In this document: piece after piece, positions 28,924 to 63,876 of the stretch | How the letters are laid out: each line of letters begins with the position of its first letter | Position numbering within the stretch: the stretch's first letter is position 1 | Source: Polytrichum commune | Taxonomy: Eukaryota > Streptophyta > Polytrichopsida > Polytrichales > Polytrichaceae | NCBI GenBank assembly: GCA_950295325.1 | Contig: OX485805.1 | Location: 38,923,501-38,987,500, forward strand | DNA: 64,000 bases | Direction: 5' to 3' | Translations under genes and position numbers: made by a program | The notes under the pieces: generated by a model | What the model was told of the DNA's origin: nothing | What the model saw: the letters and a program-made list of their open reading frames with translations, nothing else | Database searches by the model: none

Positions 28924-30850
28924 TTATGTTTCCCCGTCTCCATATTCAGCTTCATATCCATTCTCAGCTTCATTTTCCGCTGCTACAATACGTGCTAAGT
29001 TGTTTTTGGCAAAATCTATGTGTTTTTGGGGGATGGTCATTGTTTCCGATTTAGAACCCTTACGCGGCTTCCAAGCACAAAGTATGGTATATGTGTTTAT
29101 CCAAACCGGTCCATATGTTGAGTCCACTGTCCACTTGAAATTCTTTTTGGTGTCCCAACCTAAATAGGTCCGGAGAACATTATGGTCTTTGGTGCTTGGA
29201 CGACAATATTCCACCTCTATTTGACGAAAGTTGGGGCTAGTTCGAACAAAATTGGATGAAGACAATGCTTTTACCAACCAAATTGGCTTGGGGTGCTCCT
29301 CATCTCCTGCTCGTACGAGGACCATATAACCTTCATGGCAATCAACACCCACACGAAACGACAGTGCCGGCCGATTGCGCGCCGGACCAACGTAATGCTC
29401 GTCCATTGCGAACTCTTCACGGACCTCTCCATTGTTGAAGAACATGGTGTCGGACTCGACAACCGTCAAATGACTTTGTGGCCAAAATCCTTGTGTCAAA
29501 GTCATACGCGTGTCGCCACCAAGTGTCATCAAGGCGGAGCGAATGCGATCCCAATACTCGATCAACGGTTCATAAGTATCCATAACACGTTTAATTTGGC
29601 GATGTCTTCCCTACACAACTCTTTCCAATATTCAATGAATCCGGAGATGCCTTTGATGATTTCCGGCCCATTCTTCATAGGGTCGGGTTTACAAGGCTTT
29701 GGATCCCCATCCGGGAGCAAACATTTTCCATCCTTGTTCTGACGCCACACGAGTATCCCATCCTCAGGACACCAATTAGGAGATGTGCACAAAAGCTTGA
29801 ACTGCATGGCGGGGATACCATCATCCCTCATATAGAAGCGGAATTGTTGTGCTTTTGTGTGTCCCACCAAACGGTCATCTCCCTTCAACATGTATGGCTT
29901 GATGAAGGCCTTGAAATTTGGTACTTCCTCAATCATGTGCGGGATCACGAGCACATTGTCCAAATTCATGTATGATTTCATGAGAAGCGGTATGGTCGGA
30001 AAATCCTCTTCATGCAACTTCATGCTTCAACGTCCGAATGATGCATCAATGTCGTCATGTGTGTGCCCCACCATCAAGAAAGATACAAACACCTCTTTGA
30101 ATATGGCTTTTGCCACAAGCAATGACCAAAAACAAAACACGTATCGGCATTTGTTGTCTTTAGCGCAATTATCAAGTTGAACATGGAGAGTTGGAAGCAA
30201 TGGTTTTGCACAAATGGGTTCTCTAGGTGGTTCCGGCAATGCCGACATACAAACCTCATTTCCTTGAAGCACTACCTCATAAAGGGGTGTTGTTCCACAA
30301 CCATCAAAAAGGGCACGGGAAGAGTGAATCGGCGGCTTCTCAAGATCGCGCAAGAGTTTTGCAAATGAGCCAACCGTGTGGTTGGCATCGCCAGGGTAAA
30401 AATCCAAACCATAATGGGTATATTTAACGTCCCCATGGCCGTGGGCGATCATACCTGGAAAAAAAAACGATGGGTCAACAACATGAATATGAGATCACCA
30501 CTAAACGGATGGATGAAGTTGGACATTTCGCAAACAAACCCAAAAAACTAAAAATCCTTTCAACACACATTTGTGATTCCACATGAACCTGTGACAGCTA
30601 CGGGCAACTTGAAGAGACCATCTGTGGCCTTTATTTTGCGTGCATAACAAGGGCCTGCGGTTTTGGCATGGTCCATTTTATCATGGATGACAGTTAGGAC
30701 CTCAGCGGGCCTCATTATGGATAGTGCACGATTCTTGTAGTAATCTTGACGGTGCGCCTCCTGGTTGTTGACATGCTCAATGTATTTTCTCTGGTGTCTA
30801 GAATGGGACTCAGTGCCTATAGGATGGGTGTCTCGAAGACCTTTGTATTT
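28924..30850 (-). pseudogene. DUF7869-type (transposon-associated) protein, broken
   Basis: At least two exons are visible on the minus strand. Exon 30850-30589 encodes a segment with the phrase VLTVIHDKMDHAKTAGP. Its donor ACAG|GT and the acceptor ttccag| at 30454 join in phase to the next exon, which contains LHVQLDNCAKDNK and ends GHTHDDIDASFGR. These phrases are, from memory of the family, typical of plant DUF7869 proteins, which are abundant in non-seed plants and distributed like mobile genes. The frame is then broken: a TGA (30027-30029) stands where the family usually has Trp, after which the same frame continues (30023-29562). A shift near 29583-29600 moves to another frame that runs to the end at 28924 (C-terminus rich in Glu and Ala). 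The N-terminal exons are missing or unrecognised, and a GC-rich repeat abuts the gene at 30852. Confidence 0.7.
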
Positions 30851-30851
30851 C

Positions 30852-31345
30852 TGTGGGAGCCCAAAAATCCACGGAAGTCCGGATTGACTTCCTAACCGGA
30901 TTAATATCCGGATAATACCTTGGTATTGGTCTCAAAGTAGGGATTTCTAGGGTAGGTTAGTTGTCTTATGGAATAAGGTTCTAAGCATCCACTTTACGTG
31001 TAAAAATGGTAAGAACGGACACTTTGGCCGGACCGGAACTTAGTCCAGGGAGACCGTTTTTAAACGGTCCGGTCCGGGGCGTCCGGACCGGAAGGCGGTT
31101 ATACCCGAAGGCAGTTATACCGGAAGACGGTTACAACGGAAGACGGTTACACCGGAACCCGGACGGTTGTAACGGACTCGGAGCGGTTACAACGGAAACG
31201 GTTGAGGACCCAAGCCCGTTGGAGGAAGAGGGAGAGGGTACTTAAAGGAATTTCTCTCCCTCTCTGAGCCATTTGCGCGAGCGGCATTGTCGAGAGAACG
31301 AATGGTGAGCTGTTTTTCGAGTCGCCAACAGTTGGATTGCTGGGA
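30852..31345 (+). repeat. GC-rich repeat, possibly a degenerate LTR
   Basis: It starts TGTGGGAGCCCAAAAATCC directly against an exon edge. It contains dyads such as CCGGACCGG/CCGGTCCGG (31060-31095) and short tandem units of the type GGAAGACGGTTACA (31095-31205). A CTTAAAGG TATA-like box at 31240-31247 is followed by CT-rich sequence, as in an LTR promoter. I found no convincing CA end with target duplication, so the LTR reading is tentative. Confidence 0.35.
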
Positions 31346-31360
31346 TTCCTTAGTAATTAA

Positions 31361-31765
31361 CACTATATTCGTTAAATTGAGACTTTTTGGGCATTTTGAG
31401 ACATTCACATAAATAAGAACAAGGATAAATGGAACACATATTGGAGAAAGTTGTAAGATGTGAACACTTTGAAGCGGGTGTTTAGAACAAGAACCCCATT
31501 AATAACTCAATATTTGGGATTGTTTAGGGTGGGCAATCCAAACCTTAGGCCAAGTTGAAGGGGAAATCTTTAAACATTCATATTATCGCACAAAAACTTG
31601 TATGAATATGGTTTAGGTAGGGCAATCCAAACCATAGATCATATTGAAGGGGAAATATGTGAACCAATATAATATAACATACAAAATATTCCAAACTCAT
31701 ATTTGTGATGGTTTAGGTAGGGCAATCCAAACCTTAGACCATATGGAAGGGGAAATCATGTGACA
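31361..31765 (+). mobile_element. CACTA-like transposon end with three subterminal repeats
   Basis: CACTATATTCGTTAAATTGAG at 31361 is followed by sequence homologous to 41836-41990 ('ataagaac', 'attggaga', 'gttgtaagatg', 'ctttgaagcgggtgtt'). Three copies of a roughly 98-bp repeat then follow (about 31515, 31609, 31707), each with GGTTTAGGTAGGGCAATCC and 'aaac', a degenerate version of the GTTTGGGTCG..CGACCCAAAC palindrome. Multiple subterminal motif copies are a known CACTA feature, where the transposase accessory protein binds. The gene block to the right may be cargo of this element. The matching right end is not certain. Confidence 0.5.
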
Positions 31766-32840: not shown

Positions 32841-33653
32841 TCAAATGAGTTTATTATATTTCGCGTGAGCGTACAACTCTCTATACATATAGTCCTTCGG
32901 ATCCATGTATCTTTCGCCTATCGGATTACAACTAAAGAACCGGGGCACGGGTAGTCCACTCCCCACGAGCGTTTGAATGTACTTAAGTAGGTCTAACAAA
33001 AAGCGGTCTCGGACCTTCTCGACCGTCCACGTGGGGCAAACTATGAAGTTGGAGGTCGGGTTCAAAATGTTTTTGGAAGCGCTGTCGTCCACCATCAACG
33101 TGTTGTCACGGGTGGGGCGAACGTCGTAGGGACAGCCGACCATGGTCGGACGCTGGTCCCATACGATTGGCTTCAAGACCTTAAGAAATTGGTTTACGGC
33201 GGGGTTGTTGGGCTTCTTCACAACCCTGCCCTCGGGGGTGTACAATGTTTTACAAGAATCCTGTCCTAGGACCAAGCACGGGGGTTGGAGTCCCTTGAAG
33301 ATGAACTCCACGACGGCCTGGGTATTCTCGGACTTCATGGAGCTCCAAATGATCACCCACCATTTGGATAGGGCGACCTGTAGGAAGCGCCGAAGGGACG
33401 GGCGGAGGTACACTAGCTTGCTTTTGATGTACGCGGGGGGTCCATCGTAGTTGGCGTCCTCGGGCTTGCAGAAAGGCACCGTGGGGACCCTCGGACAATG
33501 CACGCACTGGACAAGGACCCCGTTGAGGTCTAGCACCAGGAACCGGGTCTTGGGAGGCGAAGGTGGCGAGGGCAAAATCGGGGGGACCACCGCGTTGTCC
33601 TCCACACTCCTCGGAGAGGATCGGTGGGGAGCTGCGACGCTATGCTCCGAACC
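32841..33653 (-). CDS. FCP1/SCP-like HAD phosphatase-fold protein (DLNG variant)
   Basis: The exon starts after a pyrimidine-rich acceptor (cgccgcag|GGT at 33653) with no in-frame ATG, so a short first exon is missing. The frame ends at a TGA at 32841. Visible HAD/FCP1 motifs in order are motif I FLVLDLNGVLVQ, motif II-like WWVIIWSSMKSEN, a Lys-rich connecting region (GRVVKKPNNP) and motif IV-like LMVDDSASKNILNP. The family acts on phosphoserine, for example in the RNA polymerase II tail, through a DxDx(T/V) motif. Here the second Asp of motif I is Asn. From memory, the DLNG form is also seen in a plant-specific FCP1-like group, so it may be a lineage trait and not decay. Activity is doubtful or altered. 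The domain is complete, and the frame is intact. Confidence 0.75.
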   Translation of the reverse strand, partial: GSEHSVAAPHRSSPRSVEDNAVVPPILPSPPSPPKTRFLVLDLNGVLVQCVHCPRVPTVPFCKPEDANYDGPPAYIKSKLVYLRPSLRRFLQVALSKWWVIIWSSMKSENTQAVVEFIFKGLQPPCLVLGQDSCKTLYTPEGRVVKKPNNPAVNQFLKVLKPIVWDQRPTMVGCPYDVRPTRDNTLMVDDSASKNILNPTSNFIVCPTWTVEKVRDRFLLDLLKYIQTLVGSGLPVPRFFSCNPIGERYMDPKDYMYRELYAHAKYNKLI

Positions 33654-34092
33654 CTGCGGCGACGAGCGAGAGAAGGCGGCGAGGACTATGTTATGCTATG
33701 TCCATCTCAAGCAGAACGGAAATTTTGTGCAAACACAAGAAGAATTGGACCATTGGTGGCAACAAAAACATACAAGGGAACAACATACATTGGGACACGG
33801 ATGCAAACATATGGGCGCCAAAAATAATAATTTTATTATTACAAATCTCTATGTACAATTTGATGGGGGGACCGCGGTGAACGAGGGCATTCACACTATC
33901 CTAATTCTACATCTACAAAATTGGTTGCGCGCCGCCAAGGTCGAGCGTAGTCGAGTGCAGGTGAGACGAAGGGGATCGCGGGGGGGGCACGTTGGGGGGA
34001 GGGGGAGCAAGTGTAGAGCAGGGGGGCAGGGGGTGTGCATTTCCTCCTAGCAAAGGGGAAACGACCACGCCAACAAGACAGTGACCCAGGAA
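33654..34092. other. Intergenic stretch or 5' intron of the phosphatase-like gene
   Basis: On the minus strand this ends in a good pyrimidine tract and acceptor at 33654, so part of it is probably an intron. No first exon could be identified. G-runs lie at 33980-34035. Confidence 0.4.
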
Positions 34093-34505
34093 GTTTGGGT
34101 CGGTCGACCCAAACTGGGAGGGCTCAGTGTATTACCTCGCCCTGGTCATGTCTCGACGATGTGGAAGCCTCCACCGTCCCCGCTGCCCCGCCTCTCTCGC
34201 CACCGCCTTCTCCGACGATGTCAGGAACCTTCTCCTGCAAACGATCGGCATCAGGCCCTTGTCCTAAACCAATCTCCGCATGTGCATCATGCATGGGTTC
34301 ATCGATTTGGTTAGGAGTAGAGGTATCACCAGGCCCTTGCAGGCCTTCAACATCTAGCATGGCCGTGTCTAGTTGACACCCATGTTGGTCAAGGGAGGAC
34401 TGCGCTGCAACGGGGTTTGGGTCGCCCGACCCAAACTGTCCTGCATCTGGAGAGGGCCCTTTGGACACTACAGTGGATGGTGGGTTTGGGTCGGTCGACC
34501 CAAAC
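34093..34505. repeat. Three near-palindromes at and inside the methylase-gene 3' end
   Basis: Copies with arms GTTTGGGTCG and CGACCCAAAC lie at 34093-34114 (central GT), 34415-34436 (central CC) and 34484-34505 (central GT). The first lies just past the stop codon. The other two lie inside the reading frame, where on the minus strand they encode FGSGDPN and FGSTDPN. Confidence 0.93.
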
Positions 34506-35623
34506 ATCCTGGGGTCGTCCGATTGGTGGGGTGGCGCCATGACTATGGGGGGCCGAAGTGGTGGAGGGCCCAAAGGGGAGGAGGCTCCAGAGACGCGCCA
34601 GATGTTGGGGTCATCCACTTGCTGGACCGGCGCGTACGGAACTTGGTGGGGCCGCATCAAGTGCTGGAAGCTAAAAGACGATTGCGGCACAGGCTGCTGA
34701 GGGATGCTCTGCGGAGGGAAGCCGGGGGGCAAGTGCGGGAAGGAGCTGGAGGGAGCCACCACCAAACCTTGCGCCCACATTCCTTGTATCACTTGTGATA
34801 TCAAGTCGGCGTGGGACGGAGGTTGGGCCATCGCCCTTTGACGCTCCTGCTCCAACAGAAGAGCCCTCAGCTGTGCGACCTCGTTCCGCATTGAGGGTTC
34901 TTCCGCGGCAGCCTTCTGCAGACGGACGCGTTGCTCCTCGTCCCTCCTCATCTTCTCGTTCGCCTCCTCCACAGTCAGGACCTCGGGCTTCACCCTAACC
35001 ATGCCAGTGAACGCTGTCGGGGACGGGGGATCTGATCTTAGCCGTTTGGCGAGCTCAATGTCATCGTCGTCCTCGCTGCTTATGGCAATGGTCTCCTCCA
35101 CGGAGTAGTCGCCATACAGCTTCTTCCCCTTTAACTTCCTCCTCTCCCTGAACGTCGCGGTGGCGTCCCTGGAGTACATGTCCCGTGCATCGTCCACAGT
35201 CAGGACGGGCACGAGCTTACTCTGCGGGGTTGCCGCCCGCATCGCCTTCTTCCGTTGAGGGGCTTCGGATTGTTGCGTGAAGCCCGTTGCCCCTTCATCG
35301 ACGTCGCCTTCCTTCTCCGCCTCCTCGTGTTCCTCTTCTTCCTCCTCCTCCTCCTCAACCTCGCCACCTTCTGTGCGGGACGGATTGCCCGGATGCAACC
35401 CGACCAGAGGTTCGGGAACTTGGGTCGTGGCCCTCATGGCCATTTCCTCCGGGTTGATGCGCCTCACCCTATCAAGAGGGTTTTCGCCACCCTGAACAAC
35501 CTCGTCGACGTAGCTACCCGGGATCCAATCGAGGATGTCCATCTTCTTCGCCAGCGATTTCTGCACCCTATAAAATGGCAGATCGCCATCCTCTATGTAG
35601 GAGTATATATTCAGCCCCGACAT
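34124..35623 (-). CDS. ParB-like/DNA-methylase gene, exon 3 (C-terminal disordered region)
   Basis: The exon follows acceptor tgtgtag at 35624-35625 and joins exon 2 in phase 0. The first about 35 residues (SGLNIYSYIEDGDLPFYRVQ) complete the methyltransferase fold: after motif I in exon 2 they match the usual 'GR..iGiE.d..Y...a' pattern of beta-class DNA methylases. The remaining about 460 residues are low-complexity. They include a Glu-rich block, a basic patch QRKKAMR that could be a nuclear signal, an SEDDDD acidic motif, a heptad-like stretch (EKMRRDEEQRVRLQKAAAEE), then Pro/Gln/Ser-rich sequence. Two near-palindromes are embedded in the coding sequence. The frame is open to a stop at 34124. 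A plain C-terminal fusion to a DNA-binding or partner-binding tail is possible. Confidence 0.72.
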   Translation of the reverse strand: MSGLNIYSYIEDGDLPFYRVQKSLAKKMDILDWIPGSYVDEVVQGGENPLDRVRRINPEEMAMRATTQVPEPLVGLHPGNPSRTEGGEVEEEEEEEEEHEEAEKEGDVDEGATGFTQQSEAPQRKKAMRAATPQSKLVPVLTVDDARDMYSRDATATFRERRKLKGKKLYGDYSVEETIAISSEDDDDIELAKRLRSDPPSPTAFTGMVRVKPEVLTVEEANEKMRRDEEQRVRLQKAAAEEPSMRNEVAQLRALLLEQERQRAMAQPPSHADLISQVIQGMWAQGLVVAPSSSFPHLPPGFPPQSIPQQPVPQSSFSFQHLMRPHQVPYAPVQQVDDPNIWRVSGASSPLGPPPLRPPIVMAPPHQSDDPRMFGSTDPNPPSTVVSKGPSPDAGQFGSGDPNPVAAQSSLDQHGCQLDTAMLDVEGLQGPGDTSTPNQIDEPMHDAHAEIGLGQGPDADRLQEKVPDIVGEGGGERGGAAGTVEASTSSRHDQGEVIH

Positions 35624-35697
35624 CTACACAATCCAAGTTATAGGGAAATTAGAATTTGTCGAGGCAGTCACATAAACAAGACTAAGTGAAATGTGTA

Positions 35698-35755
35698 GTT
35701 TGGGCCGGTCGACCCAAACCTGCAAAGAGCCTAGTTTGGGTCGATCGACCCAAAC
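35698..35755. repeat. Two near-palindromes in intron 2
   Basis: Copies at 35698-35719 (arm variant GTTTGGGCCG, central GT) and 35734-35755 (central AT, a perfect palindrome) lie inside the 160-bp intron 35624-35783. Confidence 0.93.
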
Positions 35756-35783
35756 TGCTTACGAGCTATAGAAAGTCATTTAC

Positions 35784-37115
35784 CATAGCAGCATAGACAG
35801 GTTTTGAGCCTCCGAAGATGTTGAAGATGTAGTCCCCTCTCCTCGTCAGCGTCCTCATCATTCTCATGTAAAATTCCATCCGCAGCTCATCTGCAAGATA
35901 GTTCGCGTATTTAGCCTCGTCGTAGAGGCACTTGTTCGCACCCAACCCTTCTGGAACTTGGAAGAGTTTGTCCATCCGGGATATAGGGTGGTTTGGCACC
36001 TTCAGCAACTCCGCTTTGTACACGAAGTACAAACACAAGACGTTGACGAACTTGGTCTTCTTGTCCTTCAACGTCGTGTAAGCCCCCTCCGCCGGTGCGG
36101 CGATGTAGTGAGACTTGGACACTGCATACTCCGGCTGCAATTTCCGGACAAGCTCGTACACCTGCTCCGCCCTTCTATCCTCGACTATCCAAAGCCAGAT
36201 ATCTACCTCCCTGAACTTAGGGCTTGCATAATCGACGAACTTAGTTAAGAAGGGATCGTAGAAGAGGGTGCTCATCGTGCCCTCAAATGAGCTTCCAGGA
36301 ATATTTCTAAAATCAATCATCCCAAAAGGAAAGCGGTCCCTTGCTTTCGTCCTTATTGCCATTATGGAGTCTTGACCTGGCCAGCCCTGAATTTTCAAAG
36401 GCTCGAAGGTGACAAGGTTGAAGTAAGCGTCCCCTTCAAACTGGATAATCTTCTTCTCCTTGATGAAGTTCGAGAACGCACGCGCTGTGTGATCCGGAAG
36501 CGCCCGGTTCTTCCCACCCTTCACCATCTTGGCCCGCAAGAAGTCGTCCCCCGTTTCCCTTATTAGAGCCGCCATGGAGGCACTGGTGAATTTATATTCA
36601 TCTTTGAATGCTCTCCAGTTAGCCCCATGAACCTCGCCGTCCACGACAATATTCCTCTCTGGCACCAATTTATGCAGCTCCTGCACGATAGTCGTCTTCT
36701 TTTTCCTGTTCTCCGTCCATTCCTTCATGGTGTAGCATGAAGGAACGAAGGATTTGGGCTTTACGAAGACAATCTTCGGGTGCACCCAGCACCTCTTGGC
36801 CGTGGGTGCCACGTGCAGGATGTGCGATGCCGCCTTCTCCACCTCCATCTCTGACAGCCCTTGAAGAGTTCTAAAGAACTCTCTCACGAGAGGCTTCATC
36901 TGCTTGAAGCGCGAGGCCAGGCTGAAGAAAGCGCCAGTGTCGGGGTCGATCAAATCCCCCGTCTCGTGCTTTTCAAACACGGTTTTCCACTTCCTCCAAA
37001 CTGAGTCCGATGCTGTAATCAAGTAAATCTCCCCCTTCAGGTCGTTGTATTTCTTCTGCTTGTGGCTCGAATTATCAATGGAGGAGAATTTGTTGATCAT
37101 TTGGTATTTGAAATC
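35784..37115 (-). CDS. ParB-like/DNA-methylase gene, exon 2 (beta-class-like methyltransferase core)
   Basis: The boundaries are acceptor cacgtgcag|GAT at 37115 and donor GCTATG|GTAAAT at 35784, both phase 0. The exon encodes about 444 residues. Near the C-terminal end is GDYIFNIFGGSKPVYAAM, matching methyltransferase motif I (usual 'GD.VlDpFaGSGTTl.AA'), preceded by a Leu/Met-rich helix as in beta-class enzymes, whose motif order is IV..VIII..TRD..I. The SAM-binding 'GSGTT' is changed to GGSKP. Where the catalytic DPPY/DPPW (motif IV) should lie, upstream near FGMIDFRNIPG or LFYDPFLTKFVDY, no clean DPPY is present. The protein may therefore bind DNA or SAM without methylating, or use an altered motif. 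A lysine-rich N-terminal segment joins the ParB-like exon. I infer DNA-directed nuclear function. The family call rests on motif pattern only. Confidence 0.68.
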
Positions 37116-37205
37116 CTGCACGTGAACAAAACAGAACATTTGAATGCGTGTTAGTTAAGTACATGTGATTTCCAAACCATATCATGACCAACATCTACAA
37201 CAAGA

Positions 37206-37375
37206 GTTTGGGTCGGTCGACCCAAACTGAAAAAAAACACAAGACTGCAACAGTTGTTTGGGTCGATCGACCCAAACTAAAAAAAACACAAGACTGCAAC
37301 AGTTGTTTGGGTCGATCGACCCAAACTAAAAAAAACACAAAACTGCACCAAGAGTTTGGGTCGGTCGACCCAAAC
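37206..37375. repeat. Four near-palindromes in tandem in intron 1
   Basis: Copies at 37206-37227 (central GT), 37256-37277 (AT), 37305-37326 (AT) and 37354-37375 (GT) are spaced 49-50 bp apart. They are joined by a repeated linker 'aaaaaacacaagactgcaac'. They fill most of the 269-bp intron 37116-37384. Confidence 0.94.
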
Positions 37376-37384
37376 AATACTCAC

Positions 37385-38663
37385 CTCCCACTTGGGATTC
37401 TTGTCCTTCGCATTCTCCCTCTCCTTGGGAGGCCTACGATAGAACTCCCACACCTCCCGCGAGGCCATGATATTCCTTATCCGGGAAGCTTGGTAGGCCC
37501 TCTTTTTGTTTCCCATATTGAAGTACCGGGAGATGTCGCTGAGCTTGGTCTCGTCGTCAGACCACACCACCAGTGCCTTCCAAACCTTCAACTTTTCCTT
37601 CTGATTGTTGGGATCGTCCCACTCATTCATGAGTTGGATTTTCTTGGATGCCTCCACGCTGTGTTGGCCGTCTATCAGCCAAAAATCACCCTTCTGAATT
37701 GTTGGCCACATTTCAGGTGTAGGCATTTTCTTGAGACCCTGTGGCATCACTACAATCGTTTGCTTGTCGTCTTTAAACTGCTCGCAAATGATCTGCGCGA
37801 TTATCCAGTCAACGTAGGCGTCCTCCTTTGCCCGGACACACTTCTCCGGTGGCGCTAGATGGCACTGGCTGATGTTCACGTCGAACTTGAAATCCCTGCC
37901 CATGAAAAAACAGTGGGAGCATTTCGTCGTGAAATTGTTCATGATTTTTTGCAGCTCCCCTGCATCCACCTCTTCGCCGGGCTTCAGCATGCGCAATTCC
38001 GGTGAGACTGGCTCGTCAGTCATCACAGATGACTCTCTCGCCCTCTTGGATGGAGTTGTTTGACGGCTCCCAGAAGGTGTAGGGGTCTCACTATTCGTAG
38101 GTGTTTGGGAGGGAGTGGTCCTACGCGAGTCAGCCGGTACTGGTAGCGGCATCCTCACCGATTGAGGTCTTGACGACCCTGCTCCTTCCTCTGTGGGAGC
38201 TTTCCGCCTCACAGGTTGCTGTGATTTGGTTTTGCTTTGCAGGCCCCTGTTCAGCACGGTTATTGCATGTTTTAGTTTTGTGAACCGGCTTGAGACCTTG
38301 GTATTCGATGTACTCCCATCGATAAATATTGTCTCCGGCTTGATAACTTCCGGTTCGACACAGGACTCTCTTGCATAGAGTGCGTCGAAAGGCTCGGAGA
38401 ACTGGTGCATGAACATATGCGCGTTCTGCACAACCGAGTTCTCGAGGATGACGTCGGTATAGTCTCCAAGAGACTGTACCGATGCGACCTCCCATCCCGT
38501 AAGAGTCGCCCAGGTGTGTTTCTCCACGGTTCCCACCTTGACAACAAAAATCATTTTGTATGTTGAGGCTTTGACTACTTGAATAGACCAAGCGAGGACA
38601 AGCCCGTCCTTAGGGGAATAGGAGTCATCCTGCGGGGTTTCGTGCTCCTGCCACAACATGTCC
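37385..38663 (-). CDS. ParB-like/DNA-methylase gene, exon 1, main part (ParB-like DGQH region)
   Basis: This part runs from the solo-LTR insertion (38663) to donor TGGGAG|GTGAGT at 37385. After a region of mixed sequence and a Ser/Thr/Pro-rich linker with a basic cluster (SKRARESS) comes a segment with Cys and His (FTTKCSHCFFMGRDF) and then GDFWLIDGQHSVEASKKIQ. The core DGQHxxxA is the signature of ParB-type N-terminal domains and DGQHR proteins, and is followed, as in ParB, by a beta-strand then a helix with 'ISRYFN'. In bacteria and phages, ParB-like domains are often fused to DNA adenine methylases, the same order as here. The role is inferred as DNA-site recognition. Cellular site and substrate are unknown. 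The reading frame continues into the LTR by chance. Confidence 0.68.
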
Positions 38664-39618
38664 TGTCGCGCACCTCTCCATGAGGAGTGCCCAAAACACC
38701 ATGGGCACAAGGGGGACCCCGGAGTGACACCCGGGACTTGTGGCGCCGTTGGTGAGAGGGCCCAAGTGATCCTAGTGTGGGTGAGGGCCCCGGGCGTTGG
38801 GAACGCCTCCCACCCACGGAGACTAGGAGGCACAAGGGTAAGGCCATGAGCTATGCGTAGCTCATGGCGTGGTGATTCTAGAGAGCTCAAGAACACCTCA
38901 ATCGGAGGTGTGAGCTAGGAGTTATGGCCATTTGAGTGGGGCGCTGTCCCAGTGCCTGGGAGTGATTCCCGGGACTGTCAAGGTTCAAACAGGCATAACT
39001 TCGTCAATACTTGCCCAAATGGGGCAAGTGAGGAGTCCATCGGCATCTACGTGAAGCGTAGATGAAGATGGAGTGGTTGGTTGTTAAGATCAGACATCAA
39101 ACAAGGAAGTTATGATGGTCTGAAGCTGCTAGGGACTTCTAGGCCCAGCGGCTAAGGGATAATGTCCACTTGGCCCCAACTCTTGGTAGAGAGACAAGAG
39201 GTCTCTTGACGGTGGGGTAGGGGTCCCGCGTAGAACCCTAGAGGCTTATATGGGTGAGGTAGTGTGGCCTCACCCACCCGAGGCCGAACGGCACGGCCTC
39301 CATTGGCATTGGCCTAATGTGAGGCCATAGTTGCCTAGTATGGTTCGGGTTGTTGTAGTGTTGCTCCGGCAACGCGATGATCAACATAAGATTGGACTTC
39401 CATGGATGGAAGTCCACATCTAAGGATTGGTTACCGATTGAAGGGGTGAGTCCTGAAAGCAAAGTAGGAAGGTTGGTTCCCCTCCTATGAACTATAAGGT
39501 CCGGGGTGAGAGGAGCTAACCATTAGCATGGCGGTATGCGAAGGGTTAGCGCTCGTAACCTTTGCTAGGAAATGAAAATTGGCAAGATGGTCAAGGGGGG
39601 CTAGCAAGGGTTGCGACA
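38664..39618 (+). mobile_element. Solo LTR (955 bp) of the 7-kb chromovirus family, TSD TGTCC
   Basis: It begins TGTCGCGCAC and ends GGGTTGCGACA, and is closely similar to the LTRs at 53057-54029 and 59137-60109. TGTCC is duplicated at 38659-38663 and 39619-39623. It lacks the 18-bp part of the LTR containing one arm of the GGGCGCTGTCCC palindrome, which accounts for its length. It lies in the opposite orientation to the gene it interrupts. No internal retroelement sequence remains, so it arose by LTR-LTR recombination. Confidence 0.93.
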
Positions 39619-39670
39619 TGTCCGGCGCAGGCATGAACCACCTTTCGCCGGGTCTTTTCTTTGGAGCCAT
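39619..39670 (-). CDS. ParB-like/DNA-methylase gene, exon 1, 5' part cut off by the solo LTR
   Basis: An ATG at 39670-39668 starts a basic peptide MAPKKRPGERWFMPAPDM. If the LTR and one TGTCC copy are removed, the codon phase is unchanged and the frame continues into 38658 downward, so this is the displaced beginning of the gene. The ATG directly follows tttcttacag, a good splice acceptor, so a non-coding or further coding exon may lie upstream, near the palindromes at 39697-40131. Confidence 0.72.
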
Positions 39671-39696
39671 CTGTAAGAAAATAATGCGCAAAGTTA

Positions 39697-40131
39697 GTTT
39701 CGGTCGTTCAACCCAAACATCTACGACATGAATAGGTTTAGGTGGATTGTGTATTTATATATTTCAGCATCATTTGTAATGATAATAAGAATGTTGTGAT
39801 TATTGGGTGGATTTGCATTTTATATTGTTTGTGACATGCAAGATTCCTTGATACTTTTCCTTGATACATTCCTTGATTATTATTTTGGGTTGATGTGAAT
39901 TTTATATTGATGCAAAAATCATGGATTTCTTTATGAGTTTATAATTAGAAGACTTAGTTTGGGTCGTTCGACCCAAACATGATGCTTTGTGTTATATTTT
40001 GGTCGTTCGGCCCAAACATGATGCTTTGTTTTGTGTTTGGGTCGAGCCCCCCAAACAAGGGGCTGTGTTTGGGGCCGTTTTTGGGTCGGTCGACCCAAAC
40101 AAGAGGCTGTGTTTGGGTCGTCTTCCCAAAC
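39697..40131. repeat. Near-palindrome cluster upstream of the methylase gene
   Basis: A diverged copy is at 39697-39718. Better copies lie at 39957-39978 (central TT), about 39997-40017, about 40034-40054, about 40079-40100 and about 40111-40131. Several have arm changes (GGCCCAAAC, CCCCCCAAAC), so this cluster is more decayed than the intron copies. It sits 5' of the gene start. Confidence 0.85.
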
Positions 40132-40380
40132 AATATTATTTTAATATTTTTTTTAAACTTGGCATCTAGCATATACAATGCTTATGCATTGTGTATGCTA
40201 CAAAACCGTGAATATACAAACACATATTGGTTAAAATAAAACACAATACCTTTCAAAGATGTTGTGCAGACAATTTGGAGTAGAGCAGGTTGTTCTTCCA
40301 ATAATTCTCAATATCAAACAAACTGTGAGAAAGTTCAATGAGAAACTTTCAAACAAGTATCAACTCTCACAAATAGCTCT

Positions 40381-40680
40381 TGGATCTCTCAACCAACTCC
40401 TAAATCTCACACAGAACTACTGAATCTCTCAAAAGACTTCGAAATGTCTAAACCAACTCCTGAATCTCACACACAACTACTAAACCTCTCAAAAGCCTTC
40501 GAAATGTCCAAACCAACTCCTGAATCTCACACACAACTACTAAACCTTTGAAAAGACTTCGAAATGTCTAAACCCACTCCTGAATCCCTCACAAAACTAC
40601 CGAATCTCTTAAACGACTTTGAAAACTCTCAAACAACTCTTGATACTCTTAAAGAACTCTTGAATTTCACAAGCACTCCT
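40381..40680. repeat. Tandem array, exact 60-bp period, five copies
   Basis: Units read 'gaaatgtctaaaccaactcctgaatctcacacacaactactaaacctctcaaaagacttc' with small changes (phrase given as family description; key parts 'ccaactcctgaatc', 'cacaactact', 'aaaagacttc'). The first and last units are the most diverged. It lies between the palindrome cluster and a GC-rich stretch at 40975-41045. Confidence 0.88.
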
Positions 40681-41420
40681 AAAACTTCCAGTACAAACAC
40701 CTGGACCTCCCAAACCGAAGCTTTATCTACTACACAATGTTCTACTAACTTCCTTCAGCACTTTCCAATACTCTTCAACACTCTTTTGCTAACTTCCTTC
40801 ACTCTCACACTTTAAAACCTTCCTCCGTATGTTTCTGTTTCTTTCAAAACTCTTCCTAACTTCTAAGATTGCACAAGGGCTATTCTATTGAAGAGCAAAA
40901 GAAAGGAGGGAAAAGAAGATGCAGAAGAAAGCAATGAACGCGGGAGAATGAAGGGTTAACCTACACCAAGCCTGATTCGCCGCGGCGCTTTGCGAAAGCG
41001 GCGCTTCAGGAGAGGCGGCGCTTCCAAGCGAGGCGCGGAGAGAGAGAGAGAGAAAGAAATGAGAAATGCGACGGTTGGGGTTTTGTTTACCTCGGGCATT
41101 GGCCCCCAACCGCATGAATAGGGTGCCCACAGGATTAGGGCACCCACGGAAACAGGGTTACAGGGAACCCTAAAACCTAAATCATAACGCTTGACTCTAA
41201 ACCCTTAGCGGGCCTACCTCTTTAAGAGTACATAGGCTATTTGCCTCATAGCATAGGTTGCATTCTACAATATCAACTTTTTGTAAGTTGAAAACCTTTT
41301 GAGTTTGTAAGTTCCTCGCCAATTGCCTCAAAACTAATTTTTAATAGGTTAAAATCCTTCATATCTTTTAAAGTTGTAGGTTTTAAAATCAAAATTTGAG
41401 TATTAAAAGTTGTAGGTTTT
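40681..41420. other. Spacer upstream of the methylase gene
   Basis: No supported gene. A GC-rich segment with GGCGCTT/AAGCGGCGC repeats lies at 40978-41040 and is followed by a short GA tract. Confidence 0.35.
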
Positions 41421-41422
41421 AA

Positions 41423-41497
41423 AATCAAAAGTGGGATCCTTGGCAGGAATTGAACCTGGCTAAGCCTTTCACCACGTTTGAAGGCCAAGGATTAACC
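41423..41497 (-). other. tRNA-like fold, possibly a SINE head
   Basis: On the minus strand, TCCTTGG and CCAAGGA could pair as a 7-bp acceptor-like stem. Between them is GGTTCAATTCC, a perfect RNA polymerase III B-box, inside a short T-arm-like hairpin (CAGG..CCTG). The intervening part is too short for a complete cloverleaf (about 55 nt between stem ends), and a D-arm and anticodon arm cannot be drawn, so this is not a functional tRNA gene. Two tandem copies of 'gattttaaaacctacaactt' follow on the same strand, as a SINE body might. Confidence 0.4.
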
Positions 41498-41835
41498 AAG
41501 TCTTTTTTAAAGAGTTGATTATAAGTTATGAAAGGTTGCTAAAATTCAAATGAGTTTAAGGGTGAAAGTTCTCACCATGTTCTCATTCAACCTCTACTCT
41601 TCCTGCAAGATATAGCCTAAAGATATGTACTTAGGCCAACTAATTTCCCAATTTGAAGAAGGATGAATGGCTAAAATCCTTTCTTTTAAAAAAAATTTAG
41701 GCAAAATTTCCTAAATGTTTTTTATCACATAGGTTGATATCCTATGTTTTAAAATTGTCCATAGGCTCTTTGTCCTACACTTTCAAAATTTTATAGGCTA
41801 AGTCACTAATTTTGTAGGCTGCATTTGTTTTAATC

Positions 41836-42088
41836 GGTATATTCGTTAATTTGGGATTTTTTCGGCATTTTGAGAAAGTTACAAATATAAGAACATGGAT
41901 AAAATCGCACGTACATTGGAGAATGTTGTAAGATGCAAATACTTTGAAGCGGGTGTTCATATCAAGAACGCAATTAAGATCTCATATGAAGATGGTTTAG
42001 GTAGGACGACCCAAACATTACACTATGTTGTTGTGGTCCATATATTAATTTGAGAGAAGAGAAAATCTCAAATTAGCGAATTTTAGGG
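41836..42088. mobile_element. About 250-bp MITE related to the CACTA-like ends
   Basis: The left end GGTATATTCGTTAATTTGGG and the right end, whose complement reads AATTCGCTAATTTGAGATTT, are imperfect inverted repeats. The left 150 bp are homologous to 31361-31500. At 41996-42016 it contains GTTTAGGTAGGACGACCCAAAC-like sequence (arms GTTTAGG and CCCAAAC), intermediate between the degenerate subterminal repeats and the palindromes of the gene block. It could be a deletion derivative of a larger element or the fused right end of one. Confidence 0.6.
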
Positions 42089-42600
42089 TTTAGGTTCTTT
42101 TGGACCCTGCTCTAAACCCTTATTAGTTTTTTCAAAAGAACTATGGAGTACCCTAAGGTGCTACATAAAATGTGTTATTCTACAAAACTAACCATTTATA
42201 TAGCCAGCGCATTCTTACAACAAAACTTTATGCTAAACTAATACTTATCCCCTACTTACATGACACCATACCCTAAATTTTCCAAAATCATTGAAGGCAT
42301 TGGTTTCTCTTTTGCTTGAGCATGTTATAAAAACCATATAATTGCGTTATATTTAACGATGTAACCATTCACATTTAGTCTTTACCAATGATGCCAACAA
42401 TTCACACGATATTGAATGAAAAAAAAAAGATTACCCACACCCCCCAACATGTGGAACAATTTAGAATAATTGAGTGTGGAGCCTAATAAATGAATACCTT
42501 CCCCAACTGCATTTTGCAAGGGTTTTGAAATGCACGATCCTTATTTGAAAATGCGAACATGCTCAAGTTTTAAGTACATCCCTTAGATCGTGACTTTCAC
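42089..42600. other. Gene-free spacer
   Basis: Nothing recognised. Confidence 0.3.
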
Positions 42601-43430
42601 GAATCACATAGTCGCCAATAAATCATGGTTCATGATATATTTAATATATAGATTGTGATATAAGAGTAAATGGGATAAGCACAACATCAAATGAAGCCAT
42701 TCAAGCAATCATGTTGTTATTCCCTGTTCCTTCCATGTATATTAGATGATGGCGCAAGATAAAATAGATGTTGTTTGTATATGGGGGCATCAGTGAACCA
42801 CAACTACATTTGGTGTTTAGGGTTTAGGGTTTAGGGTTTAGGAGATAGGGTTATAACATATTAATCTATCCAATGTCAATGTATAACATTGTCTTACTCG
42901 TGAGAAGAGTCTTATAGGAAGGTTATAGTGAAGACGATGTTGATTATGTTAATTTGTTATTTGAGACGTTTAAACGCGATATATTGATTGGTCGTGTGTT
43001 TATTCAAATAACATGAAATATTGTGGATGTTAATAGGGGCTAGGGGTCCAACTTTGGATGTTTCGCTCACTTTAGGGAATCACATATTAGTCGCTAATAA
43101 ACCATCGTTCATGATGTATTTAATATATGGAATGTCATGTAAAAGTAAATCGGAGAAGCACAACATCATGTTGTTATTCATTGTTCTCTCCACGTGTATT
43201 AGATAATGGAGGAAGATATAACAGATATTGTTTGCATAATATGAAGAAGAGTCTAATCGGAAGGTCATAGTAAATACAATCTTGATCATGTTAATATGTT
43301 ATATGGGACGTTTAAACATGATATCCTAATTGGTTTTGTATTTAGTCAATGCGTATTTCATGTTGTGGATGTTATAAGGGTTTAGGGTCCAATCTTGGAT
43401 GTTTTGCTCTCACACATTAGTAAACTTGAA
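42600..43430. repeat. Tandem duplication, two diverged units of about 350-450 bp, with telomere-type repeats
   Basis: 42600-43075 and 43077-43425 share, in order, 'gaatcacatag/tattagtcgc', 'gttcatgat.tatttaatatat', 'aagcacaacatca', 'gagacgtttaaac' and 'gtggatgtta..aggg'. The first unit carries (TTTAGGG)4 at about 42817-42842. Another TTTAGGG pair lies at about 43566-43583. These are internal and short, so they are not a chromosome end. Confidence 0.75.
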
Positions 43431-43589
43431 GTGAACTTGAGGATGGATTCAAGTAACATTAAAAGATTGAACTAGAAAGGGACATTGGTAGTTAGTATCC
43501 CCTTAACAACGTCCACATACGTTCGTCATTGCCACTCTTGCATGCGAGATAATAGAGCAAGGTTCTAGGGTTTAGGGTTTAGGGGGGAC

Positions 43590-44000
43590 AAATAAATAAT
43601 TCTATTCATCATGACAATGGCCTCAAGCCTTGGAAACTCTCTCATAATTGCAGCCTCCAAATGGCCCAAACCCCACCTAAATAGGTTTACACTTGAAAGC
43701 ATTGAATGGAGTTGTGTTTGGGTCTACATATTGGTTAAAATATACCTTGATGATACTTGAAAAAATTAATGTGGCCGCCACCCTTCCTCCCAATGGCGTA
43801 TGTCATATCCACACAAAATAAAACAAATAGATTAAATAACATAGACTAAGTCATATGACAGCTGGGGTATCAGAGGGGCATTGATAGATGCGCATTTTTC
43901 TACTATAAACAGAAAACGGGGAATTTTGTCAGGAGGTTTGAAATAACCTCTGCAAGAGAAGAAGGCGGGGAAGGCATCCAATGACTAAGTCTGGGAAGCG
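43590..44000. other. Gene-free spacer
   Basis: Nothing recognised before the promoter-like sequence at 44012. Confidence 0.3.
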
Positions 44001-44011
44001 GAGGTGGATAG

Positions 44012-44017
44012 TATAAA
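44012..44017 (+). promoter_or_regulatory. TATA box-like TATAAA upstream of the palindrome array
   Basis: GGATAGTATAAAGGGGCG is followed about 30 bp later by a T/C-rich stretch (44040-44060), a plausible plant core promoter on the plus strand. No coding frame follows. What follows is a 30-bp direct repeat ('ttcatgagcac.tatcca', 44127-44185) and the palindrome array. Confidence 0.45.
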
Positions 44018-44322
44018 GGGGCGCACCCCCCAAAAGTCGGTCCCTTTTTTTCTCTTCTCCCGCTGTCGAATTCGTAGAGAGAACTCTTAGTAGGAGCTGT
44101 ACTTCAAGGTTCGTGCATGCTGCCGTTCATGAGCACTTATCCATAGCATGCAAGTTCATGAGCACCTATCCACACCATGCAAGCCCACCGTGAACTTTGC
44201 AATGAGCTCAAATTCAACACACCACGCAATATCCGCCGCATTATACGCCGGATTTTGTGGTGTACTTGGGCGAACCTTCACCTTTACACTAGTGTTGGCG
44301 GGTTTTGAGTCTGACCCTATGA

Positions 44323-44965
44323 GGTTTGGGTCGACCGACCCAAACCTGTCCACTAGTGTGTTAGGGTTTATGTATGACCCTTAACAGGTTTGGGTCGGTC
44401 GGCCCAAACCCCAACCCCAGTGTGTTAGGGTTTTTGTCTGACCCTTAACAGGTTTGGGTCGACCGACCCAAACCTGTCCACTAGTGTGTTAGGGTTTATG
44501 TCTGACCCTTGTGAGGTTTGGGTCGGTCGACCCAAACCCCTACCCCAGTGTCTTAGGGTTTTTTTCCTGACCTTTATCAGGTTTGGGTCGACCAACCCAA
44601 ACCACTACATGGTGTGGGTGGATGTACTCTTGTGAGGTTTGGGTCGGTCGACCCAAACCCCTACCCCCACTGTGTTAGGGTTTTTTCCTGACCCTTATCA
44701 AGTTTGGGTCGACCGACCCAAACCCCTACGTGGTGTGGGTGGATGCACCCTTGTGAGGTTTGGGTCGGTCGACCCAAACCCCTACCCCAGTGTGTTAGGG
44801 TTTTTTCCTGACCCTTATCAAGTTTGGGTCGACCGACCCAAACCCCTACCTGGTGTGGGTGGATGTACCCTTGTGAGGTTTGGGTCGGTCGACCCAAACC
44901 CCTACCCCAGTGTGTTAGGGTTTTTTTTTTCTGACCCTTGTCAGGTTTGGGTTGACCGAGGACGA
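44323..44965. repeat. Array of ten near-palindromes in strictly alternating orientation
   Basis: Copies start near 44323, 44390, 44450, 44515, 44580, 44637, 44701, 44758, 44821 and 44878, and a truncated one near 44944. Most have 11-bp arms GGTTTGGGTCG and CGACCCAAACC around a two-base centre. The centre alternates AC, GT, AC, GT throughout, so the true unit is a dimer of about 120 bp. Linkers repeat 'tgtgttagggtttt' and 'ctgacccttatca'. One copy has GGCCC in place of GACCC (44404) and one has CAACCC (44591). Confidence 0.95.
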
Positions 44966-45527: not shown

Positions 45528-47012
45528 CTAGGTCCGATCTAAAGAGTGAGTTAAAATTCCACTCTCGAGAATTACTTTGACCTCGTTGAAGCTGAAGGTT
45601 GGCGCGTGGATGAAAAGGTCTACATCAGGATTGCGATGGCAGACCTTTAAAAGAATATAGTAAACATGCTTGTAATACGAGAATTGACTCCGCCCTCGAA
45701 AGTTGGTCATTGTCTTCTTGAACGCAGGGCATGTGCAACCCGGGAGGGAACTGATGGTGATATGGTATTGTGTCACATCGGGTGGCATCATCGAGTCTAG
45801 CGCAATGATGCAGCCATGGCCAGGGTGAGGAATCATCGTGACCAAGCGGAGTTGAGTTTTGAGGGAGTCCGAAAAGCCCATGGATAGCCGCTGCTGAGGG
45901 TTTGGACGGGTTGCGGTGCGCTTAACGAGCTTCCCTTCTCTCTTCCCAGGATACCTGTCTGCATCTGCTGGCACCGGCACGGAGTCTAGATTTGCCGGAG
46001 ACGGTGCAGTGGAAAAGAGCCTTCTGGGTGAGACTGGCACTTTCTGCGGCAGTTGGAATCCGGCCGCCTCGAGGGCCAGGATCTCACATTGCTTGAGGTT
46101 AGTGCCAAGTTTCACTGGCCAAACATCCGGAATGCTTGGTCTCTCCTGTTCCGCAGAGTATTGAACAACCCATTTGCGCTTGCTACCCTTAACGCACCTA
46201 TGGATATCATCTTAGCAGAAGAAAAACTCTGTGGTCTCTTTCACATTCCTCCTAGTGCTGTGCCATAGACCGGTGTACGTAGGGGCAGGGGTTGATTTTG
46301 CACCCCTTACGATTCTCTCAGTACACTTCTTTTTGGTGACAGCTCTCTGTGCCCAACAACATTTGGCAGAAGTCTTTGGCAACCGAGCGATGTGCCACTC
46401 CTTCACGTTCACCCTAGTCTCCTCGACGGCAGTGATGTGGCTGATCCGTCCCTCGGGGATGTGGGACGGGACGACATTGTCGGCATATGGCGCCATGGGT
46501 GCAACTTCCGGGACATTGGAATCATCCTCTTCAATAATTATGGGCATGTTAGTGGAACGAGTCCGGACAGCCCTACCAGAGCCACGGGGATGTGAGAAGT
46601 TGACCTTATCAGGTCTGTGCGACTCCTCTTCTGCTCCAAGAGGTAGATCTGCTTTCCGTTTCGTGCACCCGAATACCTCTTCCCCAGCCATGCAAGGCAC
46701 CCGGGTACAGAACTCTTCTGCTCCAAGCATGTCCATCATGGGGTCTTCGAGGACTAAAGGATTACCCGTTTGCTTCGCCCTGCGCTCTGCCAACCTTAGC
46801 TTGAGCTCTTTCTTTGTAGGGCCTGTACCGCCGACATCACCTTTCAGGAACTGGTAGTAATTGACAACCTGTAGGAAGCCTCGAACGAAGTCGTCCACGG
46901 TAGCAACATAGAGGTCGCCGCCGCTATTTCCAGACGCTTGAAGCCACTTGTTGTGTATTGATTCGGCGAGATTACATGAAGGCATTTCTGTTAGTTCTCC
47001 TTCTGTAAATTT
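45528..47012 (-). CDS. Mutator-like transposase, exon 3 (end of DDE domain and SWIM-like region), one in-frame stop
   Basis: Acceptor gtgcacgcag|AAA at 47012 joins exon 2 in phase 0 across a 95-bp intron. The exon starts KFTEGELTEMPSCNLAESIHNKW, in which NLAES matches the Mutator-like 'N..aE' block that carries the catalytic Glu. The frame runs to a TAA at 46212-46214, then continues in the same frame to 45528, so a single nonsense change separates the two parts. Near the end is GCTCPAFKKTM..SYYKHVYYILL, which fits the SWIM zinc finger (CxC..CxH) except that the third Cys is Tyr. The element is probably no longer autonomous. The region between carries a Pro/Ser-rich tail with an acidic patch (IIIEEDDSN). 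Confidence 0.75.
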
Positions 47013-47107
47013 CTGCGTGCACATAGTGGAAGCAATTATAAATTGGAGAAGAGTTGTGAAAATTACAGTGAAAGAAAAAAAAAACAACAAGTTTTGGGAC
47101 AACATAC

Positions 47108-48592
47108 CCCGGTCATGAAGCCTCCCCATTGGCGATAACGGAAATGCCAGAATGCAAGCCAGAGCTCCAGTTTGTCAAGTGCCTTCTCTGTCACTGCCCC
47201 AGCGGATACCCACCATGCACGTAGCCCGTGGTACAGGTTTTCCGCTTCGTCCATGGTCCTCGCGGTCCTATATTGGTGGCACATCTTCTTGTGCTGCTCC
47301 CAGAGTTCCTCGGGAATGTATTTCTCGGTATACTTAACCATAGATTGGGTCCAGTGAAACTGACAGGTTCTCTCCCGGTCATCCATGCGGTCCTCCTTCT
47401 TCCCGTTGCCATATATGACCCGAACTGCATTCCAATTGGCCTGGGCGCTGTCGGCCATGAAACCCTTGAAGTTGGTATCGACAACACCATTCCTCTCCAT
47501 CACAGCATTGAGATTCTTCCAAAAAACGATCTGGGCATCACAGTCCTCCGATTGCATGTCACAACTTGCAATGGTCATGACACGACAATACGTGGAGTCA
47601 TACACGTGGCATGCCATTGTGGTCCATTGTCTAACCCGTTTCACATGGTCGAACATCATCCAAGCATTCTCCAGATCTTCGCCGGGCTGCATACGCTTCA
47701 CCAAGTCTACCCCACTACCAGGCCCGACTTCCGACATCTTGAAGACAAAAACCTTGTCAAGATTAGCCCCTTGACCAGGGAATTTGTTCTCCTGAACAAA
47801 GGCCCATAAACTGATTCCACGGAGTTTGGTGATAGAGTCCATGACACCATACCTTCTGAGGTATCGGAAGCTCATGACCTTGTTGCGGATGTTCGGGGAA
47901 GCCATGTCCTTGCACCGGTCGAATACAGGAACAAGTTCCTCCAGAGTGAGCTTCTTTGGTGGCGCGTCATCGGATTGAAGAAGATAGTTGCCAATTAGAA
48001 CTTTGCTAGCCTCCAACACAAGTGCACTCTTGGTAGCCTGAGGAGTCTTCTCGATCTGTTCTTCAATTAGGCCACTGATCTCAGCCTTAGTGTCTCTGTA
48101 GTCGCCCACCTTGACAGGGTGATCGTGAGTTCCAATGTGAATGCACGCTCTTGTGTGGTTGTTTTTGCCAGCAACATAATAAATTTTCGCTCCACATGTA
48201 GCAATACATGTTGGGGGTTCTTTACATACCTTGCAAACAAGCGTAGAGTCAGATGGGGGCGCTTGATCCACTACAAAGGCTTGGAGGGTACAACCTTCAA
48301 ACTCTGTCTCGTTGACTTCGAAAATACGAGGTCGGCGGATCAAATATTCGCACTCCTTGTTGTTGCAACGCAGGTGTCCAACGCAGGCGGAAGAACGGAA
48401 GGACAAACCAAAGTCGTTTGTGATGTTGGTGGTGATGGTCTTCGTCCACACATGGCCGTCGTAACGCTTGTCCATTCCCTGCATTGACTTGGCCTGTGAC
48501 CGTGCGGCCGTATCACCAGCGGGTGGCAACTCAAATATGACGACACCATCGAACACAGCAGGAAGGTACTCTACTCTCTCGTGTCTAATCAC
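47108..48592 (-). CDS. Mutator-like transposase, exon 2 (zinc-binding N-terminus and DDE core)
   Basis: The exon ends at donor ATGACCGGG|GTATGT (47108). It starts near 48592, where ttactcag at 48594 is a candidate acceptor. An N-terminal Cys/His region (HLRCNNKECEYLI; CKVCKEPPTC; ACIHIGTHDHPV) looks like a WRKY/FLYWCH-type zinc finger, common at the start of Mutator-like transposases. The DDE core follows: VYDSTYCRVMTIAS (first Asp), FMADSAQANWNAV (second Asp), then RTCQFHWTQSM (the conserved C..H block). The third acidic residue is in exon 3. The protein would excise and reinsert elements with 9-bp target duplications. No frame damage is seen in this exon. Confidence 0.82.
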
Positions 48593-48609
48593 TGAGTAAT
48601 CTAATTTTT

Positions 48610-49212
48610 TTAGAATATTTTTTTTCCCGGCCTTCCTGCAAGTTGTTTTAGCAATGGAAATATTCTAACAGTCTCTTGGGACAAAGGATATACTTTAGGA
48701 GCATTCCCACTAACTATAACCTGAGGCGGGGGCTTGGTGGGACTGCCCTCTTCATCTGAAGAAAGTGTAATTATAGACTGAACTCTAACGTTTTCTACAA
48801 TTGGCGTGTCGAGACCGGGCTCGAGCTTGACCTTCACATCACGTGGCAGAGGAGTTTGAATGGTGCACGTAGAGGAATTACGAGGAGTGAGGATCTCAGT
48901 AGACGCAGCCATCTGAGAATCAGTGAGGCCATAAACTCGGTAACTACCTGGAGGAAGACTCCAAAACAAGTTATTGTTCTCATCTCGCTGCGATACCCGA
49001 CCAAGGGTGTATGTAAGTTCTAACGTGACAACATCAAAAATATCCTCGTCAACAATAATAGTATCCTCTCTGAAGCCGAACCGAATACTCAGACGTTGGG
49101 ACGTCACGTAAGCTAGACCGTCCTCTTGCATCCGAAAGGTAACTGGGACTCTCACACCATCTGCATAGAGGACAGCCAACCCCAAGTCTCCAATAGCAGG
49201 AATATGAGCCAT
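48610..49212 (-). CDS. Mutator-like transposase, exon 1 (N-terminal region)
   Basis: An ATG at 49212-49210 (MAHIPAIGDLGLAVLYADG) starts a frame open to 48610. The first about 100 residues look like a compact beta-rich domain (PB1-like or ubiquitin-like sequences often open these proteins, which I infer only from pattern). It is followed by a Ser/Pro-rich linker with an acidic motif (ITLSSDEEG). The donor could be CCTCAG|GTTATA at 48721 or a site further on. The join to exon 2 is not resolved because the phases of the best sites disagree. It may be a separate upstream gene, but spacing and orientation favour one gene. Confidence 0.55.
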   Translation of the reverse strand: MAHIPAIGDLGLAVLYADGVRVPVTFRMQEDGLAYVTSQRLSIRFGFREDTIIVDEDIFDVVTLELTYTLGRVSQRDENNNLFWSLPPGSYRVYGLTDSQMAASTEILTPRNSSTCTIQTPLPRDVKVKLEPGLDTPIVENVRVQSIITLSSDEEGSPTKPPPQVIVSGNAPKVYPLSQETVRIFPLLKQLAGRPGKKIF

Positions 49213-63469: not shown

Positions 63470-63876
63470 TGAGAGCTGGGAGAAGAAATGTAAGGTTATT
63501 ATCTGATTTTTGGTGGCAGCCTAGTGTGGCTGGATGGTCCTTAGTGAGGTTAGAAGTTAGAGCTAGGGGCACTGTCGGATCTGACAGACCCCTAGGGACT
63601 GATATGAGCACCTCGGTTTTGATTTTCGTGAGGGTCAAGGTGAGAGCTAGGCCAGAAATCTAAGGTTATTATCTGATTTTTGGTGGCAGCCTAGTGTGGT
63701 TGGATGGTCCTTAGTGAGGTTAGAAGTTAGAGCTAGGGGCGCTGTCGGATCCGACAGACCCCTAGGGGCAGATATGGGCACCTCGTTTTTTATTTTCGGG
63801 AGGTTAGAAGTGAGAGCTGGGGGCAGAAATGCAAGGTTATTATCTGATTTTTGGTGGCTTCCTAAGGTGGCTAGAT
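63470..63876 (+). repeat. 170-bp satellite, block 3
   Basis: Hairpin centres at 63574 and 63744, spacing 170. The array is then cut by another LTR of the chromovirus family. Confidence 0.95.

Follow-up and report, generated by a model that had tools for sequence, protein, structure and literature searches.

The ParB/methyltransferase (MTase)-like gene described here is best explained as belonging to a DNA transposon of a land plant, about 15.65 kb long, in which it serves as an accessory gene and lies divergent to a gene for a DUF7869 protein. It is a repeated and selected gene of a multi-copy transposon, and its exons are real. The copy analysed lies on the minus strand of a 64-kb window (the whole stretch of DNA under study) from a genome of 407.8 Mb in 64 contigs. 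A 22-bp palindrome, GTTTGGGTCG-NN-CGACCCAAAC, composed of two 10-bp half-sites and a 2-bp spacer, co-occurs with the gene, in introns, in flanks and in a central array.

Gene structure, copies and element

The gene consists of three open frames joined by phase-0 GT..AG junctions at 37385/37115 and 35784/35623, with intron 1 at 37384-37116 and intron 2 at 35783-35624. The start of exon 1 (39619..39670; MAPKKRPGERWFMPAPDM) was recognized by its match to the N-terminus of the relative P0001. The main part of exon 1 (37385..38663) is predicted to encode a PH/PTB-like N-terminal domain, a linker and a ParB-CTPase-like domain with DGQH, and exon 2 (35784..37115) a helical region and an MTase-like fold without motif IV. 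Exon 3 (34124..35623) begins with MSGLNIYSY and encodes a putative post-motif I strand and helix, followed by an acidic, proline-rich tail containing two in-frame palindromes, which are translated FGSTDPNP and FGSGDPNP. Both sequence marks given in the initial annotation were present, GDFWLIDGQHSVEASKKI within exon 1 and GDYIFNIFGGSKPVYAAM at the end of exon 2. The three-exon model of that annotation held for the frames and the junctions, but not for the continuity of exon 1 from the ATG at 39670, as a solo LTR lies inside this exon (38664..39618; 955 bp, TGTCGC..GCGACA, 5-bp duplication TGTCC), beginning after its first 52 bases. The LTR, the palindromes and the element borders had all been overlooked.

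In P0001, the protein starts with MAQKKRPGERWF and continues to LWSEHET, and MAQKKRPGERWFQLAPEVLWSEHET is uninterrupted. The exon 1 frame also crosses the insertion site in 18 of 20 other copies fetched from the same genome, the remaining two (L012 and L014) having no coverage there. Since the solo LTR splits exon 1, the window copy is probably not functional. LTR copies of the same family occur elsewhere in the window (53057-54029 and about 59129-60113), and also in L012 and L023, at different positions, as judged from blast comparisons confined to pieces above a minimum length of 150-200 bp. A splice acceptor (..ttacag) immediately precedes the ATG at 39670, so that the gene likely has an additional exon upstream.

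A search of the genome with P0003 gave at least 81 matches, a lower bound because 47 of 2,434 candidates were scored. All three exons were fully open, with identical splice borders, in eight of the 20 other copies fetched (L009-L028); the other twelve were not fully open, including L012 and L014, where exon 1 was partly uncovered or missing. The splice borders recur in relatives, as judged from open frames running into the intron, and the frame of P0006 is continuous over the first junction. Between subgroups (L024 against L022), dN was 0.112 and dS about 1.56, a ratio of 0.07, with dS saturated and not computable in exon 1. For L024 and L016 the values were 0.047 and 0.485 (ratio 0.10), and for L024 and the window copy dN/dS was 0.17. 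Some pairs of copies are 99.3-99.7% identical in coding DNA, and the spread was therefore recent; their dN/dS values of 0.13-0.61 come from few changes. These copies agree with the mobile-element setting proposed initially. The proposed plant host also fits, as one MIR166 locus was found above the cut-off in the genome and none in 14 control genomes; MIR166 is a land-plant family.

Homology of the window with the single copy fetched past that point (L024/L029) ends at about 31361, and the element extends beyond the gene as initially annotated, to about this position. Here lies a terminal inverted repeat (31361..31386, plus strand; CACTATATTCGTTAAATTGAGAC...), which marks the end of the element on the 3′ side of the gene and whose partner is known from another copy. 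This copy (C5:49301473-49317124; 15,652 bp), the one from which the borders at both ends are known, is bounded on either side by a perfect inverted repeat of 26 bp. Between these ends lie, in this order, the NIF/FCP1-like phosphatase region and the ParB/MTase gene, which both point leftward, the central palindrome array and the rightward DUF7869 gene. We infer that the DUF7869 gene is probably the transposase gene of the element. In the two long C5 frames that were scanned, DUF7869 alone matched, and Transposase_21 was not among the matches. In the window, DUF7869 frames at 28927-30931 lie beyond the element end and thus probably belong to a neighbour. In a comparison of the window with L030, nothing matched past 44921; therefore, the upstream part of the element is seemingly missing from the window.

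The second element gene of the window is a NIF/FCP1-like (HAD) phosphatase-like ORF (32841..33695, minus strand; PF03031, E 2.5e-13). An ORF of this type of at least 276 aa with the motif was found in 15 of the 20 other copies and was shorter or absent in five. The C5 frame is short (104 aa) and so may be damaged.

CACTA (En/Spm) transposons start with CACTA, end with TAGTG and have a Transposase_21-type transposase. The 26-bp repeat starts with CACTA, and the AA/TT outside it is also common to both ends. No CACTA-type 3-bp target duplication was found at the C5 copy, whose flanks are TAA and TTG. If the ends are taken as AACACTA, a possible 4-bp duplication (GTTT) can be seen by eye at this one copy. 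Sola transposons have a Sola transposase and a 4-bp target duplication. The similarity of 31364-31547 to 41838-42020 was considered as a second element end and rejected, because the repeat is direct, not inverted.

Predicted ParB-like and methyltransferase-like folds

Exon 1 is predicted to hold a ParB-CTPase-like fold of the ParB N-terminal alpha/beta type, in line with the ParB-like DGQH domain proposed initially. In a structural comparison of low-confidence models, ranks 1 to 11 were all ParB, Noc, KorB or PadC. In Foldseek with exon 1, flavin oxidases and other proteins, most of them matching over a short length, ranked above KorB (ranks 15, 23 and 35), and Foldseek by itself gave no match at E<=0.001. 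Members for motif comparison were chosen by motif patterns from 68 proteins and the window copy (23 for exon 1 and 25 for exon 2), and members without those patterns are thus not in the sets. DGQH was present in 22 of the 23 and GGQH in one. A Pfam search of the window exons at E<=1 returned no family, including no ParB_N (PF02195), and no useful family emerged when the exon sequences were searched against Pfam and PDB. Weak DUF6551 matches were found in 12 of the 23 members (best E 0.012), lying on the DGQH stretch in the six single-scanned members with a match.

The MTase-like region is predicted to adopt a beta-class/MT-A70-like SAM-MTase fold, with motif I on its C-terminal side. Its models, again of low confidence, resembled N6-adenine MTases, and all 50 of the 50 structural matches listed were MTases. 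The fold class and the order of ParB followed by MTase, both part of the initial annotation, are therefore supported at the level of predicted folds. That the protein is an active DNA methylase, as the modification module proposed there would imply, is not supported, because motif IV ([DNS]PP[YWF]) was missing from each of the 25 members examined, whereas all 11 phage ParB-MTases have it. P0010 has a single EPPH, at a different position from motif IV. Because of this absence, the MTase-like domain is probably catalytically dead. An active N6A/N4C methylase that marks element DNA, as suggested for the ParB-MTases of algal transposons in the available text of PMC12477816, would agree with the equal domain order of the algal proteins and with nearest folds that include active 6mA methylases. 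However, besides the lack of motif IV, motif I is NVFGGSK-like rather than DPFGGSG-like, and we regard this alternative as the least probable of those considered here.

Phage and prophage ParB-N6_N4_Mtase fusions, such as the Wolbachia WO methylase, have the same ParB-then-MTase order. The 11 phage proteins, of about 400 aa, keep DPPY, whereas motif IV is absent in the plant members examined, and their length suggests that they lack counterparts of the N-terminal domain and the acidic tail. In a profile comparison with these proteins, the best local pairings were weak and fell on the expected motifs; the probabilities, 5.5% and 1.5%, are not counted as proof. Column-shuffled profiles did equally well in 0 of 60 and 1 of 60 cases, and reversed profiles scored lower. 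A phage tblastn search with exon 2 uncovered no relative, and searches of viral contigs (queries P0006 and A5) and GTDB contigs (A5) gave pattern matches in which no relatives were confirmed. A2 aligned poorly (mean identity 15%) and was kept out of the conclusions. Given these searches, the prokaryotic origin proposed initially for the ParB/MTase module is no more than inferred.

The 22-bp palindromes

Allowing up to three mismatches, 25 palindromes occur in the 64-kb window, all within 34093-44899, and none in 20 shuffles; the C5 copy has 44 at the same threshold. Exact palindromes number 9,231 genome-wide, against none for the reversed pattern, and are clustered among the first 100 places listed. 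In the nine exon-mapped copies (the eight open ones and the window copy), exons 1 and 2 have no palindrome and exon 3 always has two, the rest lying in introns and flanks. In the window, intron 1 contains four with a 49-bp period (37206..37375) and intron 2 contains two (35698..35755). One palindrome lies right past the stop codon (34093..34114), four (0 to 3 mismatches) lie upstream of the start codon (39957..40100), and further imperfect ones are at 39697 and 41995. An array of ten with a 121-bp double unit (44324..44899) corresponds to the central array that separates the divergent genes of C5. In intron 1, the tandem units differ between L022 and L024, while the palindrome is common to both.

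Open frames of relatives entering the introns contain signatures of the palindromes TTACGGACG-NN-CGTCCGTAA, TTACGAACG-NN-CGTTCGTAA and variants, which are back-deduced here from protein, not read from DNA. A signature was found in 43 of 68 proteins (six of type A, that of the window, one of A2 and 36 others, some ambiguous) and in none of the 68 reversed sequences. P0046 fits two signature patterns, as does P0060, which is outside the trees, and seven proteins have the ambiguous LRTxVR alone. In the exon 1 and exon 2 trees, the main types (A with A2; C; B with D) track clades, as read by eye. Some tree members have no signature or an ambiguous one; P0005, which sits close to the A clade, is without a signature. 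Palindromes of a like design but different sequence thus seem to be present in relatives, in line with the protein tree.

The palindromes could instead have entered the introns as a satellite or MITE-like repeat with no relation to the protein, which would then serve another role, for example as an NTP-dependent switch or a chromatin reader. Tandem amplification with shared spacers within introns would suit such a repeat, as would the genomic palindrome count, which perhaps exceeds the expectation from gene copies, itself based on a lower bound. However, the rest of the window has no palindrome and relatives seemingly have different palindromes along the gene tree, which makes this explanation improbable, only slightly less so than active methylation.

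Candidate role and related systems

A long, symmetric, spaced site that recurs in noncoding DNA and co-varies with a protein is the trace expected of a dimer that binds its own element sequence-specifically. We favour, at about even chances, a self-recognition factor that acts on the palindromes of its own element for anti-silencing or activation, comparable to VANC or En/Spm TnpA, with a catalytically dead MTase-like domain. The protein would dock on the palindromes, read as by a symmetric dimer, through its ParB-like and/or MTase-like region, the dead MTase-like domain serving as a DNA-binding or dimerisation module. Once docked, it may protect or activate the chromatin of the element and/or organise its DNA for transposition.

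En/Spm TnpA binds the end repeats of its element. It is likewise an accessory factor encoded by a transposon, whose activation correlates with demethylation according to the available text of PMC10398659, and is likened to the present protein by role, not by sequence. A TnpA-like accessory without an epigenetic role, gathering DNA by palindrome binding and aiding the DUF7869 transposase, is the nearest rival. It has this precedent, and palindromes do lie in the flanks and between the two divergent genes. However, those of C5 are mainly internal, about 3 to 11.8 kb into the 15.65-kb element, not subterminal, and we consider this alternative unlikely. Anti-silencing or activation is preferred because the layout matches that of VANC proteins of Arabidopsis VANDAL elements, for which binding and loss of methylation are demonstrated in the available text of PMC5735166, TnpA being a further precedent; active methylation ranks below both. 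In VANDAL elements, a protein encoded by the element likewise accompanies arrays of a short motif in introns and noncoding DNA, and motif and protein change together (PMC5735166 and PMC10398659, in the parts available). Such arrays in noncoding DNA are what we found in the present element. The VANC21 motif is of 9 bases in the same orientation (YAGTATTAY), whereas the sites here are 22-bp palindromes, and the two systems are likened by layout, not protein sequence. A more specific version is tentative and less probable than the general reading: the ParB clamp and dead MTase of each clade would load on its own parS-like palindrome and, by NTP-dependent spreading, keep the element unsilenced, protein and palindrome co-evolving as a self/non-self system.

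The initial annotation knew of no described plant system of this kind. The kind is already known, because ParB+MTase accessory genes were published from transposons of brown, green and red algae; in the available text of PMC12477816, it is suggested that their proteins bind the element that encodes them and mark it, with no target named. The algal elements described there are likewise giant DNA transposons in which the gene and the transposase lie on different strands, and ParB-like and MTase-like domains are combined in a protein of 1104 aa. Compared by description, not by sequence, the present family differs in its land-plant host, DUF7869 partner, loss of motif IV and identified palindromic repeats. 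According to a survey of ParB proteins (PMC12704722), the member found most often in eukaryotes is sulfiredoxin, and the main text of this survey, as available, has the word "plant" at no word start. A literature search found no land-plant case of ParB+MTase, loss of motif IV or palindromic candidate site in print. New here is thus a land-plant variant of the ParB+MTase transposon genes with a candidate target site. The family supplies a strong candidate site, apparent clade-specific variants and dozens of copies, and so makes the idea of self-binding directly testable. If this idea is true, the ParB fold would have been re-used by plants as a selfish anti-silencing device.

N-terminal domain and phosphatase ORF

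Structure prediction for the frame at 37277-38914 (minus strand) suggests that residues 96-233 of the modelled part of the ParB/MTase-like protein form a PH/PTB-like N-terminal domain. The structural matches to this predicted domain included the SANTA domain of M18BP1, and two relatives matched YEATS weakly. A NIF/FCP1-like phosphatase ORF (32841-33695, minus strand) is carried along with the transposon, and is at least 276 aa long in 15 of the 20 other copies fetched from the same genome.

Other coding frames and tandem repeats

Long frames at 45531-49350 (minus strand), one with a SWIM-like CxCPAF pattern recognized by eye, had no match in a Pfam search and perhaps represent a MULE-type transposase. 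The frame at 57348-57890 (plus strand) resembled by eye a retrotransposon integrase core, and its Pfam search returned only a weak unrelated match. A tandem repeat of about 170 bp forms arrays at 51516-53056, 60110-60630 and 63470-63880, the first two of which adjoin LTR copies of the same family as the solo LTR in exon 1.

Element termini and the neighbouring DUF7869 frames

Positions 31364-31547 and 41838-42020 form a direct repeat (79%). The latter, an end-like sequence within the element, may duplicate its terminus, either internally or as a nested copy. Frames of a DUF7869 gene, the inferred transposase gene in another copy, lie outside the ParB/MTase-carrying element at 28927-30931 (minus strand). 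Accompanied at 28527 by a related terminal sequence, they are likely part of an adjacent related transposon.
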